Source of the DNA: Mesoaciditoga lauensis cd-1655R = DSM 25116
GTDB lineage: Bacteria; Thermotogota; Thermotogae; Mesoaciditogales; Mesoaciditogaceae
DNA: 38,606 nucleotides
Assembly (NCBI RefSeq): GCF_000745455.1
Contig: NZ_JQJI01000023.1
Location: 1-38,606 of the forward strand
Reading direction: 5' to 3'
In this document: positions 3,314 through 38,606 of the stretch, piece by piece
How positions within the stretch are numbered: the stretch's first letter is position 1
Layout: each line of letters begins with the position of its first letter
Made by a program: the position numbers and the translations under genes
Notes under the pieces: model-generated
The model's database searches: none
What the model saw: only the letters and a program-made list of their open reading frames with translations
What the model was told of the DNA's origin: nothing

Positions 3314-3514
3314 ATGAAAGGTACTGTTAAGTGGTTTGACCCAAAGAAAGGCTATGGATTCATCACGATGGAAGACGGGAACGATATATTCGTTCACTAC
3401 TCTGCGATAACGATGGATGGCTTCAAGACTCTCGAAGAGAATCAGAAAGTCGAATTCGATATCACGGAAGGCCCAAAAGGGAAACAAGCTTCCAACGTGA
3501 GAGCAGCAGACTGA
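3314..3514 (+). CDS. csp: cold-shock domain protein
   Basis: This is a 66-aa single-domain RNA/ssDNA-binding chaperone of the CspA/CspB family. RNP1 (KGYGFI, residues 12-17) and RNP2 (DIFVHYS, 24-30) are intact, as is the N-terminal GTVKWF strand. The length is the family norm. An AAGGAGG ribosome binding site precedes the ATG, a strong promoter lies about 50 bases upstream, and a hairpin terminator follows, so it is monocistronic. The short hairpin at the start of the mRNA may affect stability or cold induction, but this is inference. Symbol given at family level. Confidence 0.97.
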
Positions 3515-3538
3515 TCTCATATCGTCAAACTGAAAATG

Positions 3539-3562
3539 AAAGCCCGGCTTAAGCCGGGCTTT
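3539..3562 (+). terminator. rho-independent terminator of csp
   Basis: AAAGCCCGGCTT/AAGCCGGGCTTT forms a perfect 24-base palindrome 25 bases past the csp stop and is followed by an A/T-rich tract containing TTTTGTTTTT. Confidence 0.85.
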
Positions 3563-3583
3563 AAATATTCATTTTGTTTTTAA

Positions 3584-3924
3584 CTCATGTTGTGCGCGAA
3601 CATTACAAAAATTCTCTATAAGAACATGTAAGCAACGCATTGGAATACAATCCTTTTTGATTTAAAACCCGCTTTCCAAGCGGTCAAAGCTATTTTTTTG
3701 AAGTCCTGTCAGAACGCATTCGCTCTTCTTTCCGCCTTCCAATTCAAAATATGAGGCACGCTCAGACGCTCGTCCATGAGCGCTTTGCTTTCTCGGCACG
3801 TCCTGTGCCTCTCAACCTCATATTTTGAACTTCCGGCTGGAGAGCTCATATGTTCTGACAAGTACTTCGAGGGTGAAATTTAATCCTTTTTTGAAATACT
3901 TTGTAATATTGACGCACAGGATGG
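3584..3924 (+). repeat. dispersed structured intergenic repeat, copy A
   Basis: This is the most complete copy of a family found at least four times in the window. The left end CTCATGTTGTGCGCGAACAT is mirrored at the right end (reverse complement CATCCTGTGCGTCAATATTA). Inside are a second inverted pair (GAAGTCCTGTCAGAAC against GTTCTGACAAGTACTTC) and a third (TTCAAAATATGAGG against CCTCATATTTTGAA). The third pair encloses a core with two small hairpins, CGCTC/GAGCG and GGCAC/GTGCC. The eight bases GTTTTTAA occur at 3576-3583 and again at 3925-3932, directly flanking the element and resembling a target-site duplication. It fills the gap between the converging csp and cstA genes and has no convincing reading frame. 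Confidence 0.85.
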
Positions 3925-3962
3925 GTTTTTAAATGTTTCATCAATTGATAAGCAAAATGGGT

Positions 3963-3996
3963 AAAAAAAAGGAAGGGAATTTTCCCTTCCTTTTTT
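3963..3996. terminator. bidirectional terminator after cstA
   Basis: GGAAGGGAA-TT-TTCCCTTCC (3971-3990) is preceded by eight A and followed by six T, so it works as an intrinsic terminator on either strand. It lies 24 bases beyond the cstA stop. Confidence 0.85.
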
Positions 3997-4019
3997 ATTT
4001 TAATTGACTTTGAACTTCC

Positions 4020-5753
4020 TCATTCGAATTCTTCTACTTCTTGCAAGCCTTTCTTGTGTTGAGAATGAGTCTTCATTATCGCGGCAAAGGCTTCGACTAT
4101 TAACCAAAGCATCGTTATGAACACGATTATAGCTATGGTGAGAAGCAGTACGTTGTGTGTAGCGTTGAAATGCTTGATGTTCATTACCATAGCCCATCCC
4201 GTCATGATTACCATGAATACCATTGGAATGCCAGCTATCAGGTAAGAAGAATGTTTCTTTAACAGATAGACTGTTGCAACTAAGAGCGCCAAGCCTGCGA
4301 GCAGCTGATTAACCGTTCCAAACAACGGCCAAAGTATCAAAGCACCTTTTCCGTTTGGAGCAGCCATTGCCAAAGCAAAAGCGCTTAAAATGGCTATAAG
4401 GGTTGCTGGATGTTTTTTCGTCATCCATTTCATGTGAAGGTCTTTCCCTAACTCTTGAATAACATATCTCTGAGAACGTGCAGCTGTGTCAAGAGAAGTT
4501 CCAGCGAAACTCACTATGAAAACACCCATTATCGTTGTTATAAGGCCTTTTATGTATCCACTGTCTCCAAAAAGATAGGTGAGCATGTTCGTTGAACCAG
4601 TGATGAATCCGCCTATCTTGGCTCCAAGACCAGAAGCGGCTGCCCAACTTGAATAATGCTGATTCCAAAGTGCCAACCCTCCAGCTTTCGTAGCAGCCGT
4701 GGTTCCAATACCAGCAGAAACTGCCAATATAACGAGTGCGGCCAATATACCTTCGGAAACCATTCCACCGTAGCCGATGAGTTTTGCATCACTTTCTTTA
4801 TCGACTTGCTTGGAAGAGGTACCAGATGAAACGAGAGAATGAAATCCGGAGATAGCACCACAAGAAATTGTAACGAATATGAAGGGCCAGAATGATGGAG
4901 CACCCTTTGGATGAAGATTAAAAGATGGTGCCACAAATGCGAGATGCTGTGGAGATCTTATGAGTGCTGCCACAGCACCCAGGAAGATCAAGCCAATCGC
5001 AACAAGCAGCTCATGAGCGTTGATGTAATCCCTTGGCTGCAGCAACGTTTCAACTGGAAGTACCGATGCTATGTAAGAGTAGATAAGCATTATGACAAGC
5101 CAGCTAACTACGGCATTCCCCGGCAACTTTATCGGTATGAAAACACCTATAGCAATGGTGGCATACATGGCTACCAAAGCCAACCATGACCACAGATCAA
5201 GACTTTTCTTTCTCTTGAAAACCATATGAGAAAGTAAAAGGGCTATCGGTATTTCCATCCAGACTGGGAAAACGGAAGAAGGATACATGTTGAAAAGAAT
5301 ACCCATTATCAAAGCAAAAACGGCTATAACAATCCATAGTTCAAGAAATATAACTATGAAGAAAAGGTATCTCGCTCTTGGACCTATAATCTTAGCGGTA
5401 ACTTCTCCCAAACTTTTTCCTTTGTTTCTCATAGAGATAACTAAGGCTGAAAAGTCATGGACTGCGCCGGCAAAGATGGTCCCTAAAGTTACCCATAACA
5501 AAGCGGGCACCCATCCCCATATTATTCCAATGGCAGGCCCTACTATTGGCCCCAGACCGGCAATAGAAGTGTAGTGGTGTCCCCAAACAACCCATTTGTT
5601 TGTGGGAACGTAGTCAACTCCATCTTTCAACTCGTGAGCAGGGGTTACTCTTTTATCGTCGAGCTTGAAAACTTTTTTTGCGATGTATCCCCCGTATAGT
5701 TTGTACATCACAAAAAACCAAATAAGAGCTATTAAAAAGATAACAAAACCCAC
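4020..5753 (-). CDS. cstA: carbon-starvation (CstA/BtsT) family transporter, probable pyruvate or peptide uptake
   Basis: This 577-aa inner-membrane protein has many hydrophobic segments and the CstA N-terminal hallmark NKWVVWGHHYTSIAGLGPIVGPAIG, followed by the conserved FAGAVHDF. Characterised members carry pyruvate with protons (BtsT, CstA of E. coli) or are linked to peptide use. The GTG start has a good AAGGAGG box. It lies just downstream of, and on the same strand as, a LytTR regulator and LytS kinase, the same pairing as BtsS/BtsR with BtsT, which favours pyruvate as substrate. A candidate -10 (TATACT at 5798-5803) has no good -35, which fits activator dependence. Family is certain; substrate is inferred. 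Confidence 0.93.
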   Translation of the reverse strand: MGFVIFLIALIWFFVMYKLYGGYIAKKVFKLDDKRVTPAHELKDGVDYVPTNKWVVWGHHYTSIAGLGPIVGPAIGIIWGWVPALLWVTLGTIFAGAVHDFSALVISMRNKGKSLGEVTAKIIGPRARYLFFIVIFLELWIVIAVFALIMGILFNMYPSSVFPVWMEIPIALLLSHMVFKRKKSLDLWSWLALVAMYATIAIGVFIPIKLPGNAVVSWLVIMLIYSYIASVLPVETLLQPRDYINAHELLVAIGLIFLGAVAALIRSPQHLAFVAPSFNLHPKGAPSFWPFIFVTISCGAISGFHSLVSSGTSSKQVDKESDAKLIGYGGMVSEGILAALVILAVSAGIGTTAATKAGGLALWNQHYSSWAAASGLGAKIGGFITGSTNMLTYLFGDSGYIKGLITTIMGVFIVSFAGTSLDTAARSQRYVIQELGKDLHMKWMTKKHPATLIAILSAFALAMAAPNGKGALILWPLFGTVNQLLAGLALLVATVYLLKKHSSYLIAGIPMVFMVIMTGWAMVMNIKHFNATHNVLLLTIAIIVFITMLWLIVEAFAAIMKTHSQHKKGLQEVEEFE

Positions 5754-8710: not shown

Positions 8711-9071
8711 CTCATGCTGTGCGTGAACATTATGAAAAGTATTACGAGAGACAAAAATTACTATGAGAACATGTGAGCAACACATTGGAATACAATCCTT
8801 TTTGATTTAATACCCGCTTTCCAAACGGTCAAGGTAATTTTTTTCGAAGTCCTGTCAGAACGGATTCGCTCTTCTTTCCATCTTATAATTCAAAATATGA
8901 GGCACGCTCAGCCACTCATCCGTGAGTGCTTCGCTTTCTCGGCACGTCCTGTGCCTTTCAACCTCATATTTTGAATTTCCAGCTGGAGAGCTCATATGTT
9001 CTGACAAGTACTTCGAGGGTGAGATTTAATCCCTTTTTGAAATGCTTTGTAATATTGATGCACAATGTGAG
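8711..9071 (+). repeat. dispersed structured intergenic repeat, copy B
   Basis: Same order and orientation as copy A, with good terminal symmetry: the left end CTCATGCTGTGCGTGAACAT and the right end, read in reverse complement, CTCACATTGTGCATCAATAT. The core hairpin stem is CACTC/GAGTG where copy A has CGCTC/GAGCG, a paired change. The GGCAC/GTGCC hairpin and the TTCAAAATATGAGG/CCTCATATTTTGAA stem are kept. It accounts for most of the 600-base gap between the 94-aa gene and pgk-tpi. No direct repeat is seen at its borders. Confidence 0.85.
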
Positions 9072-9160: not shown

Positions 9161-11116
9161 TTAACAAAGCTTCGTAGCTATACGATGGATAGATGAGAAA
9201 TCTTCGACTTTTAACGAAGCTCCCCCGATCAGTCCACCATCTATATCTGGCAAGAGGAAGAGCTCTTGGCAATTGCTAACTTTTACACTCCCGCCGTACA
9301 GAATAGAAATTCTCGAAGCAATTTCTTCCGTGAATATTTCGGTCAGGACGCTTCTCACATAGGCGATCGCTTCTTGTGCCTGGTATGGCCTTGCTACTAC
9401 ACCTGTACCTATAGCCCATACAGGCTCGTAAGCTATCGTCAACTTTGAAACATCGTTTACCTTCACGTCTTTCAAATCCTTGGTTAACTGCTCCTTCAAC
9501 ACTTCAAAAGTTTTTCCCGCTTTTCTTTCTTCTAAAGTTTCTCCAATGCAAAGCACGACTGACATATCGTTTTCCAAAGCGGTTTTCACCTTTTCGTTGA
9601 GGAAATCATCGGTTTCACCAAAAATATGGCGTCTTTCTGAGTGCCCTATAAGAACATGGGTTATTTCCATGTCTTTAAGCATGGGAACACTTATTTCACC
9701 GGTAAAAGCGCCTGAGAGTTTTGAGTGAACGTTTTGAGCACCAACAACGATATCACTCCCTGTGAATATTTCCTTGACTGTTGGTAATGAGACGTAAGGA
9801 GGAAATACCCACACCTCTGCGTTTGAGTTCATATCAAGCGCCTTCAACAATTCTCGCGAAAAACTCCTCGCTTCAGATGGGGTTTTGTTCATTTTCCAAT
9901 TGCCTGCAACTATTAGAGGACGTTTCTTCTTCGAATCAAGTATGGAGGCTATTCCTGGGAGTTCCTTTCCCTCTAAGAATTCAAGGGAGGCTCCTCCACC
10001 AGTGGAAACGTGTGAAACTTCGTTTTCAAGCCCAAATTTTTTCACAGCTGCTGCGCTGTCTCCGCCACCAATAACCGTTAAAGCGTCTTTCATACTTGCA
10101 AGCGTTTGTGCAACGGCTTTAGTACCGTTGGCAAAGTCGTCTATCTCGAAAACGCCCATCGGGCCGTTCCAAACAACGGTCTTCGCTCCAGAAAGCTTTT
10201 CCTTGAAAAGCTCCACACTCTTAGGACCTATATCAAGCCCCATCCATCCTGATGGAATCCCTTCTGCTATGGTGAACGTTTTCTTTTCGACGCCAGCCTT
10301 CAATTCTTGGGCACACACTGCATCAACTGGCAAAACGATTTCCACTCCAGCCTCTGAAGCTTTTTTCAAAATATCTTTGGCAAGATCTATTTTGTCTTCT
10401 TCGTATCTAGATGAGCCTATTTCATGGCCTTGTGCTTTTAAGAACGTGAACATCATTGCGCCGCCGATGAGAAGCTTGTCAGCCTTGTTTAAAAGATTTT
10501 CTATGACTCCTATCTTGTCGGATACTTTTGCTCCTCCGAGTATGACAACATATGGTTTCTCTGGAGAAAAGGTTACTTTAGACAACATGTCTATCTCTTT
10601 CTCCATCAAAAAGCCGGCTACTGATGGAAGGAACCTCGCCACTCCAACGTTTGACGCATGTGCACGATGGGCTGTACCAAACGCATCGTTAACGTGAATA
10701 TCTCCAAGTTTTGCCAAAGATTTTGCAAAATCTGGATCGTTTTTCTTTTCACCAGCGAAAAATCTGGTGTTCTCTAGGAGCACCACATCACCAATTTTGA
10801 GGTTCTCAGAAAGCCTTTCCGCTTCTTCGCCTATGGTTTGTTTACAGAAAATGACTTCCTTTCCCAAAAGTTCCCCTAGCCTTTTTGCTACAGGTTCAAG
10901 GGAATATTTGGGATCTGGTTCACCCTTAGGACGGCCAAGGTGAGACATAAGTATCACCTTGGCACCTTGATCAAGGGCATACTTTATAGTCGGAAGCGCT
11001 GCCTGAATTCGAGTGTCATCTGTTATTTTCCCTTCACTCATGGGAACGTTGAAATCCACTCTCATCAGGACGCGTTTATCTTTTAATTCAACTTCCTTGA
11101 TCGTGAGCTTTTTCAT
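9161..11116 (-). CDS. pgk-tpi: phosphoglycerate kinase-triosephosphate isomerase fusion
   Basis: This single 651-aa reading frame carries two consecutive glycolytic enzymes. Residues 1 to about 395 are PGK ([47 protein letters not shown]). About 400-651 are TIM (GNWKMN, IGHSERR, the catalytic segment [16 protein letters not shown]). In Thermotoga maritima the same fusion is reported to need a programmed frameshift between overlapping genes. Here it is in frame. The open frame can start at GTG 11125, but AAGGA is 10 bases before ATG 11116 and almost touches the GTG, so ATG 11116 is preferred. It follows gap directly and ends in a strong terminator. Confidence 0.97.
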
Positions 11117-11129
11117 GTGGCTCACATCC

Positions 11130-13945: not shown

Positions 13946-14156
13946 CCATAAATCGTTAAAGGCTTGTTTTTCAATAAGTGATTTTTTTAACTAAATTGTT
14001 TCGTGTAAAAACCAAGCTGAAATCAATTATGTTCTCACCTTGTACGTCGATGTTAAAAAGCATCACCACTGCCAAACACTGCAAACAACCAAATTAACTA
14101 AAATGAGACTAAAAACGCGTGAAAAGCAACTACAAATCACGAAGCTAATCAAAAAG

Positions 14157-14457
14157 AAATTAAATCTAATCCTCGAAGTACTTGTCAGAACATATGAGCT
14201 TTCCCTCTGAAGACTCATAAAAACGAGGTTGGAAAACACACGGATGTGTTGAGAAAGCGAAGCACTCATGGATGAGTGTCTGAGCGTGCCTCGTTTTTTG
14301 AGTCGTAAGATGGATAAAAGAGCGAATCCGTTCTGACAGGACTTCGAAAAAATGTCTTGACCACTTGGAAAGCGGTGTTTAAATGTGGCTCACATGTTCT
14401 CATAGGGAGATTAATGCTTTTTGTAATACCTTTAGTAATGTTCACGCACAACATGAG
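14157..14457 (-). repeat. dispersed structured intergenic repeat, copy C (reverse orientation)
   Basis: Read on the minus strand it begins CTCATGTTGTGCGTGAACAT and follows the order of copies A and B. It lacks the GGAATACAATCC segment of the left arm and its distal right arm is degraded. The core stems are changed on both sides: ACTCAAAAAACGAGG pairs with CCTCGTTTTTATGAGT, and AACACA pairs with TGTGTT where A and B have GGCAC/GTGCC. This paired divergence argues for selection on base pairing. The copy fills the gap between livF and dnaX. Confidence 0.85.
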
Positions 14458-29465: not shown

Positions 29466-29490
29466 GAAATAAACAGTGAATGACGCGTAT

Positions 29491-29595
29491 CTGAGCGTGC
29501 CTCATATTTTGGATTGTCAGATGAGAAAAAGAGCGAATCCGCTCTAGCAGGACTTCGAAAAAATGCCTTAGCCGCTTGGAAAGCGGTAGTAAAAT
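29491..29595 (-). repeat. dispersed structured intergenic repeat, fragment E
   Basis: This is a half copy in reverse orientation. It keeps one side of the core stem (GAGGCACGCTCAG and CCAAAATATGAGG on the minus strand), the GGATTCGCTC and GAAGTCCTGC segment, and the CCGCTTTCCAAGCGG hairpin of the left arm. The other half of the core and both outer ends are gone. It lies between the converging rRNA methyltransferase and focA genes. Confidence 0.75.
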
Positions 29596-29678
29596 GTCAA
29601 AGGATGCTATTATTCGAAATATGTTATCCACACAGATTCGCAGAGAACTAAATTTTTCCATCAAAACAAGAGAAAGGT

Positions 29679-38099: not shown

Positions 38100-38345
38100 C
38101 GCTCATCCCGCGCAAGCATTACGAAAGATATCACAAGGAGAACATGGGAACAACATTGGAATACAATCCTTTTTGATTTAGCACCCATTCAAGTGGCAAA
38201 GACATTTTCCTCGAAGTACTTGTTCAGAACATATGAGCTCTCCATCTGAAGATTCACAAATATGAGGTTGAGAGGCACAGGACGTGCCGGGAAAGCGAAG
38301 CACTCATGGACGAGTGTCTGAGCGTGCCTCATATTTTGAATCGGA
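38100..38345 (+). repeat. dispersed structured intergenic repeat, copy D (rearranged and truncated)
   Basis: The left arm (starting CTCATCCCGCGCAAGCATTA and including GGAATACAATCCTTTTTGAT) has the same orientation as in copies A and B. From about 38210 the sequence continues with the reverse complement of the core of A and B (CGAAGTACTTG, GAACATATGAGCTCTCC, GAGGCACAGGACGTGCC, GAGCGTGCCTCATATTTTGA). The core is therefore inverted relative to the arm. After 38345 the expected remaining arm is missing and unrelated A/T-rich sequence leads into the transposase. Confidence 0.8.
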
Positions 38346-38428
38346 TATTCTAAAAAGTCAAGAGTGAAATAGAAAATTTAAAGAGTTTAAAAATTAAAAA
38401 GTATCAATTGGTCTGTTGGTCTTTGAAA

Positions 38429-38606
38429 TCAAGGCATAGAAGGGTCAAAATCAACCCCTTTCTTCCATATCGCATAAACGAGTTCTGCCAGTTTTCTAGC
38501 TATAGCAGTGAGAATAACCTTGGGATGTTTTCCTCTTTTCCTCATGTCATCGTATTTAAGTCTGTACTTTGGAATGATTCTCAAGGCCCTAACAGCGAAA
38601 TTGTAA
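38429..38606 (-). mobile_element. IS110-family transposase, C-terminal part (runs off the window)
   Basis: The last 58 codons of a reading frame enter from the right edge and end in TGA at 38429-38431. The translation contains ALRIIPKYRLKYDDMRKRGK, then HPKVILTAIARKLAELVYAI, then WKKGVDFDPSMP. This is the usual end of the Transposase_20 domain of IS110/IS116 transposases (R-x-RGK-x-x-x-x-A-x-A-RKL-x-x-x-x-[YW]). The catalytic Ser domain and the N-terminal RuvC-like DEDD domain would lie outside the window. IS110 elements encode a bridge RNA at one end, so one may be present outside the window. The 83 bases between the stop and the break in copy D would be the short right end of the element. 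Confidence 0.8.

Follow-up and report, generated by a model that had tools for sequence, protein, structure and literature searches.

MITEs of Mesoaciditoga lauensis carry a divergent TwoAYGGAY-like core that may act as a decoy for CsrA

TwoAYGGAY (RF01731) is an RNA family for which, to our knowledge, no function has been proven since 2010. It was listed as a probable RNA by Weinberg and colleagues, whose original report gave its distribution as human gut, gammaproteobacteria, and Clostridiales (PMC2864571). Binding to CsrA was put forward in the RMfam paper, which also pointed out the tandem GAs (PMC4333381). Small RNAs arise from the QMITE1 and QMITE2 elements of Coxiella burnetii, MITEs of 150–400 bp with about 50 copies (PMC5896051), and the passages on ERIC and Correia elements in PMC10969869 present these as high-copy bacterial MITEs. 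In the literature on Thermotoga, Marinitoga, and Mesoaciditoga repeats, no description of the repeat family reported here was found.

The window analyzed in this study, a stretch of 38,606 nucleotides of M. lauensis DNA, contains five copies of the family, all of them between genes:

3584..3925, plus strand: copy A, a full family I MITE of 342 bp, with a profile and terminal inverted repeat (TIR) match and a 7-bp duplication on each side
8711..9071, plus strand: copy B, a full family I MITE of 361 bp without detectable target duplication
14034..14457, minus strand: copy C, of a 424-bp subfamily, the element being reversed; the same subfamily occurs at L079:2519-2942
29472..29656, minus strand: partial copy comprising the left arm and half of the core (profile positions 49-220)
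38105..38345, unstranded: partial, rearranged copy with a core at 38242-38348, RNA sense plus

A preliminary description of this DNA had recognized the family but counted four long copies and two fragments, where we find three long and two partial copies; the end that it gave for copy A (3584-3924) moves by one base. Its account of intergenic repeats, in which nested inverted repeats surround a pair of small hairpins, agrees with our results, and no open reading frame was common to the copies, as it had stated. In folding, which it had proposed as a check, copies A and B far surpassed shuffled sequence in stability (z of about -7.4 and -7.3, respectively). The genes on either side of copy A (window 3314-5753) are a cold-shock gene and cstA. 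The latter is known as a target of CsrA in E. coli, which may be coincidental. Elsewhere in the window, phosphoglycerate kinase and triosephosphate isomerase are fused in one gene of 654 aa (9161-11125, minus strand). An ORF running off the window end (38429-38605, minus strand) looked by eye like the end of an IS110-type transposase, a reading that was dropped as Pfam gave it no support.

Full copies measure 342-424 bp and carry inverted ends of the form CTCA..TTGTGCGTG; they open with CTCAYGTTGTGCGTGAACATTACGAAA and close with the inverted TTTGTAACATTGACGCACAATGTGAG form. The shell of copy A is made up as follows:

3577..3583, unstranded: left target-site duplication TTTTTAA, an exact copy of 3926-3932
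3584..3610, plus strand: left TIR, CTCATGTTGTGCGCGAACATTACAAAA; this end was found at 81 genome sites (control 0) and matches the end of a transposase-bearing insertion sequence in a sister genome
3899..3925, minus strand: right TIR, degraded, with 5 mismatches; this end was found at 63 genome sites (control 0)
3926..3932, unstranded: right target-site duplication TTTTTAA, an exact copy of 3577-3583

Some 15 of the copies sampled, copy A among them, have exact flanking duplications of 7-8 bp. Elements with common ends fall into length classes of about 95, 206-236, 265, 361, and 424 bp. As TIR-only elements of 95 bp and 265 bp are also flanked by duplications, movement requires neither the left arm nor even the core. 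The repeats are thus short and non-coding, have terminal inverted repeats and, in many copies though not in copy B, target-site duplications, and share their ends with an autonomous element of the sister genome; that they are MITEs is close to certain. Duplications of 7 bp suggest a DDE transposase, and an IS200/IS605-type element was set aside for this reason. Integron attC sites were likewise considered and set aside.

The transposase-bearing elements were found in the sister Mesoaciditoga genome G012, which holds two related insertion sequences, IS#1 and IS#2, with DDE transposases. There, IS#2 ends in CTCACCCTGTGCGTGAACATTACGAAATATGTTACAAG, resembling the left end of family I, and its N-terminal part is broken by another MITE; a 595-bp remnant with both ends visible lies in genome G016. 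The window genome retains IS#2 only as a short relic and has IS#1 at several contig ends. Pfam classified both transposases as DDE, the full copy scoring above the DDE_Tnp_1 cut-off, while an incomplete copy of 229 aa stayed below the NCBIfam cut-offs for IS4_4 (54.1 bits vs 250) and IS701_3 (50.3 bits vs 170). On contig 39, a pair of TIRs spanning 1042 bp was considered as the autonomous element and rejected, as it encloses a nitrilase-like gene (function assigned by eye). A further MITE family of about 300 bp in G012 has IS#1-type ends (CTCACGTTGTGCGTGAAGATTAAG) and no core; its sites are L097:852 and 6353 in G012, and L079 near 3144 and L078 near 4427-4453 in G000. One of its copies interrupts the IS#2 transposase gene.

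Genome-wide counts were obtained from pattern searches and samples. A 24-base core pattern, allowing ≤3 mismatches, matched 183 sites in the 2.17-Mb genome, and the reversed control pattern matched none, so that similar copies do exist elsewhere, one of the points on which the preliminary description had made its claim depend. None of 67 sampled cores lay inside a gene although 88% of the sample is coding, in a 438.6-kb sample partly picked for hits and with genes taken as long ORFs rather than curated annotation. Among named genomes, from which the window genome's own records may have been left out, the exact core is confined to Mesoaciditogaceae. It was not found in viral contigs, where three looser pattern matches were rejected by the covariance model. 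The preliminary description had offered a MITE-like element, a structured RNA, and a recombination or packaging site as candidates; the first two combine in our reading, and no support was found for the third.

Each long copy in the window encloses a structured core, detected with R1, a covariance model built from the family cores:

3732..3840, minus strand: structured core of copy A, RNA sense minus (R1 114.8 bits; alignments A1, A3)
3795..3809, minus strand: first GGA-loop hairpin of copy A, RNA sense GGCAC(AGGAC)GTGCC
3767..3782, minus strand: second GGA-loop hairpin of copy A, RNA sense CGCTC(ATGGAC)GAGCG, with a compensated A-U to G-C pair private to copy A
3669..3683, minus strand: terminator-like hairpin CCGCTTGGAAAGCGG with GTTTT behind it, located downstream of the copy A core in RNA sense; in other genera the hairpin persists although its stem letters differ
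8878..8986, minus strand: structured core of copy B, RNA sense minus (R1 125.6 bits; RF01731 24.8 bits at 8868-8996, minus)
14203..14313, plus strand: structured core of copy C, family II-type, RNA sense plus (R1 131.5 bits; RF01731 27.3 bits at 14205-14311, plus)

That the repeats belong to no named family, as first described, holds at the Rfam default cut-off, at which the window gave no match. It does not hold with permissive settings: RF01731 was then the best Rfam match of copies B and C, and relatives in the phylum pass the cut-off. The permissive search of the copy A region returned only flanking terminator-like matches, and an RF01731 search of the window's own genome gave nothing significant. 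A family II copy scored 26.2 bits. In other Thermotogota, RF01731 matched seven of the places found by R1, on the opposite strand and in some cases above the cut-off, and relatives in another Thermotogota genus reached 52 bits. The core has the two AYGGAY-loop hairpins and the tandem GA in one stem that characterize TwoAYGGAY; since copies B and C remain under the gathering score of 43 bits, it was filed as a variant and not as a member of the family. It is clearly homologous to the relatives that RF01731 matches, and its homology to TwoAYGGAY itself is very likely.

The structured center is not specific to the MITE family of the window. Family II elements have different ends, a less clear target duplication, and one or two cores per element, with 88 core sites at ≤2 mismatches; tandem cores about 290-300 bp apart were noticed at L039:16463-17150 and L040:15410-15950. 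Elements in G013, G014, and G016 also bear the core, two of those in G014 within exact 7-bp duplications, and some elements of this group have an extra hairpin domain. Such a variant, with CGCAGCTAYCGCTTTGGTCGT plus a hairpin, occurs at L072:4030-4197 and L066:169-334, and the stem of this hairpin differs by compensated letters between two genomes. The covariance-model search of other Thermotogota, proposed at the outset, returned R1 matches in two further families, represented by three genera (G038, G039, G042, G043, G052, and G102). Copies from other genera seem balanced in orientation.

A possible role of the core is suggested by the genome of the host, which has an intact csrA adjoining a fliW-like gene (FliW named by eye). 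Relatives with csrA and without the core exist as well. The short non-coding MITEs would once have been mobilized by a DDE transposase that used their CTCA...TTGTGCGTG ends, with the 7-bp target duplications left behind. Their cargo would be a divergent TwoAYGGAY-type structured RNA, which for copy A is encoded on the minus strand. If transcribed, this RNA would present two GGA hairpin loops to which CsrA could bind, and many copies might jointly form a decoy for the protein. To this full reading, a MITE with a divergent TwoAYGGAY cargo that most likely serves as a CsrA-binding decoy, we give about an even chance, and a decoy function of the core is plausible in its own right.

The evidence on expression needs to be read with care. 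A simple scan of copies A and B for sigma-70-like promoters found none on the RNA strand, and the orientation of family I relative to genes is random, without bias. Of 32 family II cores, 23 lie behind a gene on the same strand, mostly just past the stop codon; as they follow the strand sense of the upstream gene, read-through would yield the non-RNA strand. A wobble asymmetry leans to the RNA strand and is not decisive. Given these observations, expression of the core and its binding by CsrA are inferred. The missing promoter and the random orientation also suit a MITE without a decoy role, as do the MITE anatomy and the presence of the core in multiple copies in most genomes that have it. 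Here the fold would serve the element itself, for example through a transcript hairpin that spares neighboring genes some harm or serves as a substrate of RNase III, as is known from other bacterial MITEs; the likeness to TwoAYGGAY would go back to a selfish repeat from which both descend, and RF01731, too, may be a family of repeats. We regard this as a serious possibility, though on balance not the probable one. A generic hairpin would have no need of the GGA loops and the tandem-GA stem, the letters of which are conserved across families while the stems vary. The expected loop is present in the first hairpin of 88 of the 98 copies and in the second hairpin of 84, the first hairpin of family I often having the shorter loop AGGAC; the tandem-GA stem GCGAAG/CTGAGC is exact in 86 of 98. 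GC-to-AT mutation at CpG was examined as a source of loop variation and was not convincing.

Compensatory changes reveal a conserved fold. In the 31-sequence alignment, 97% of cells are paired, compared with 24-50% when partners are slid. Double changes in 11 of 32 pairs exceed all 500 shuffles, a strong result that is not to be read as a probability, since the shuffles keep relatedness. Eight stem pairs differ on both sides between the two families, I and II, and still pair. This argues against a fixed double-strand site, and the conserved features fit a motif defined as RNA; a cruciform or single-stranded DNA hairpin bound by a protein, without any RNA role, is therefore improbable, despite the long near-palindromes, the random orientation of family I, and a weak strand asymmetry (G-U vs A-C, 40 vs 30 distinct variants, not decisive). 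Template switching at quasi-palindromes during replication, to which long palindromes are prone, could have left compensatory changes without selection, such as the private paired change in the copy A hairpin stem, but this origin of the fold as a by-product of palindrome correction is very improbable, as loop and internal-loop letters are conserved across families too and family I diverges less at paired than at unpaired positions (0.034 vs 0.060).

The occurrence of a TwoAYGGAY-like RNA as the core of high-copy MITEs in cultivable thermophiles offers an explanation of how such an RNA could multiply, and suggests that the class is able to spread as a passenger of mobile DNA. It also extends the range of TwoAYGGAY to another phylum and makes the proposal of CsrA binding directly testable. 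As a caution, an orphan RNA family may turn out to be a mobile repeat. More speculatively, and rather doubtfully, TwoAYGGAY RNAs might have spread through Thermotogota in several MITE shells, so that their summed transcripts would titrate CsrA and the copy number of a transposon would tune a circuit of its host.

Compared with known systems, the present repeats differ from ERIC and Correia elements in their ends and hosts, and the passages on those elements in the source given above make no mention of a TwoAYGGAY-like core. They share with QMITE1 and QMITE2 the status of bacterial MITEs; there, however, individual insertions give rise to the RNAs, for which no named family was reported, whereas here a conserved structured RNA lies at the center of most copies and recurs in different MITE families. 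CsrB and RsmX/Y/Z are promoter-driven genes with more GGA sites. Like them, the core has GGA in hairpin loops, csrA is present in the genome, and RsmY and TwoAYGGAY share Rfam clan CL00106; unlike them, neither copy A nor copy B shows a promoter. TwoAYGGAY (RF01731, clan CL00106) differs from the core in its outer stem and junction, and the core scores below the cut-off within this genome and resides inside MITEs at about 180 sites. Both have two hairpins with GGA terminal loops, a tandem-GA stem, and an enclosing stem, in the same order and on the same strand.
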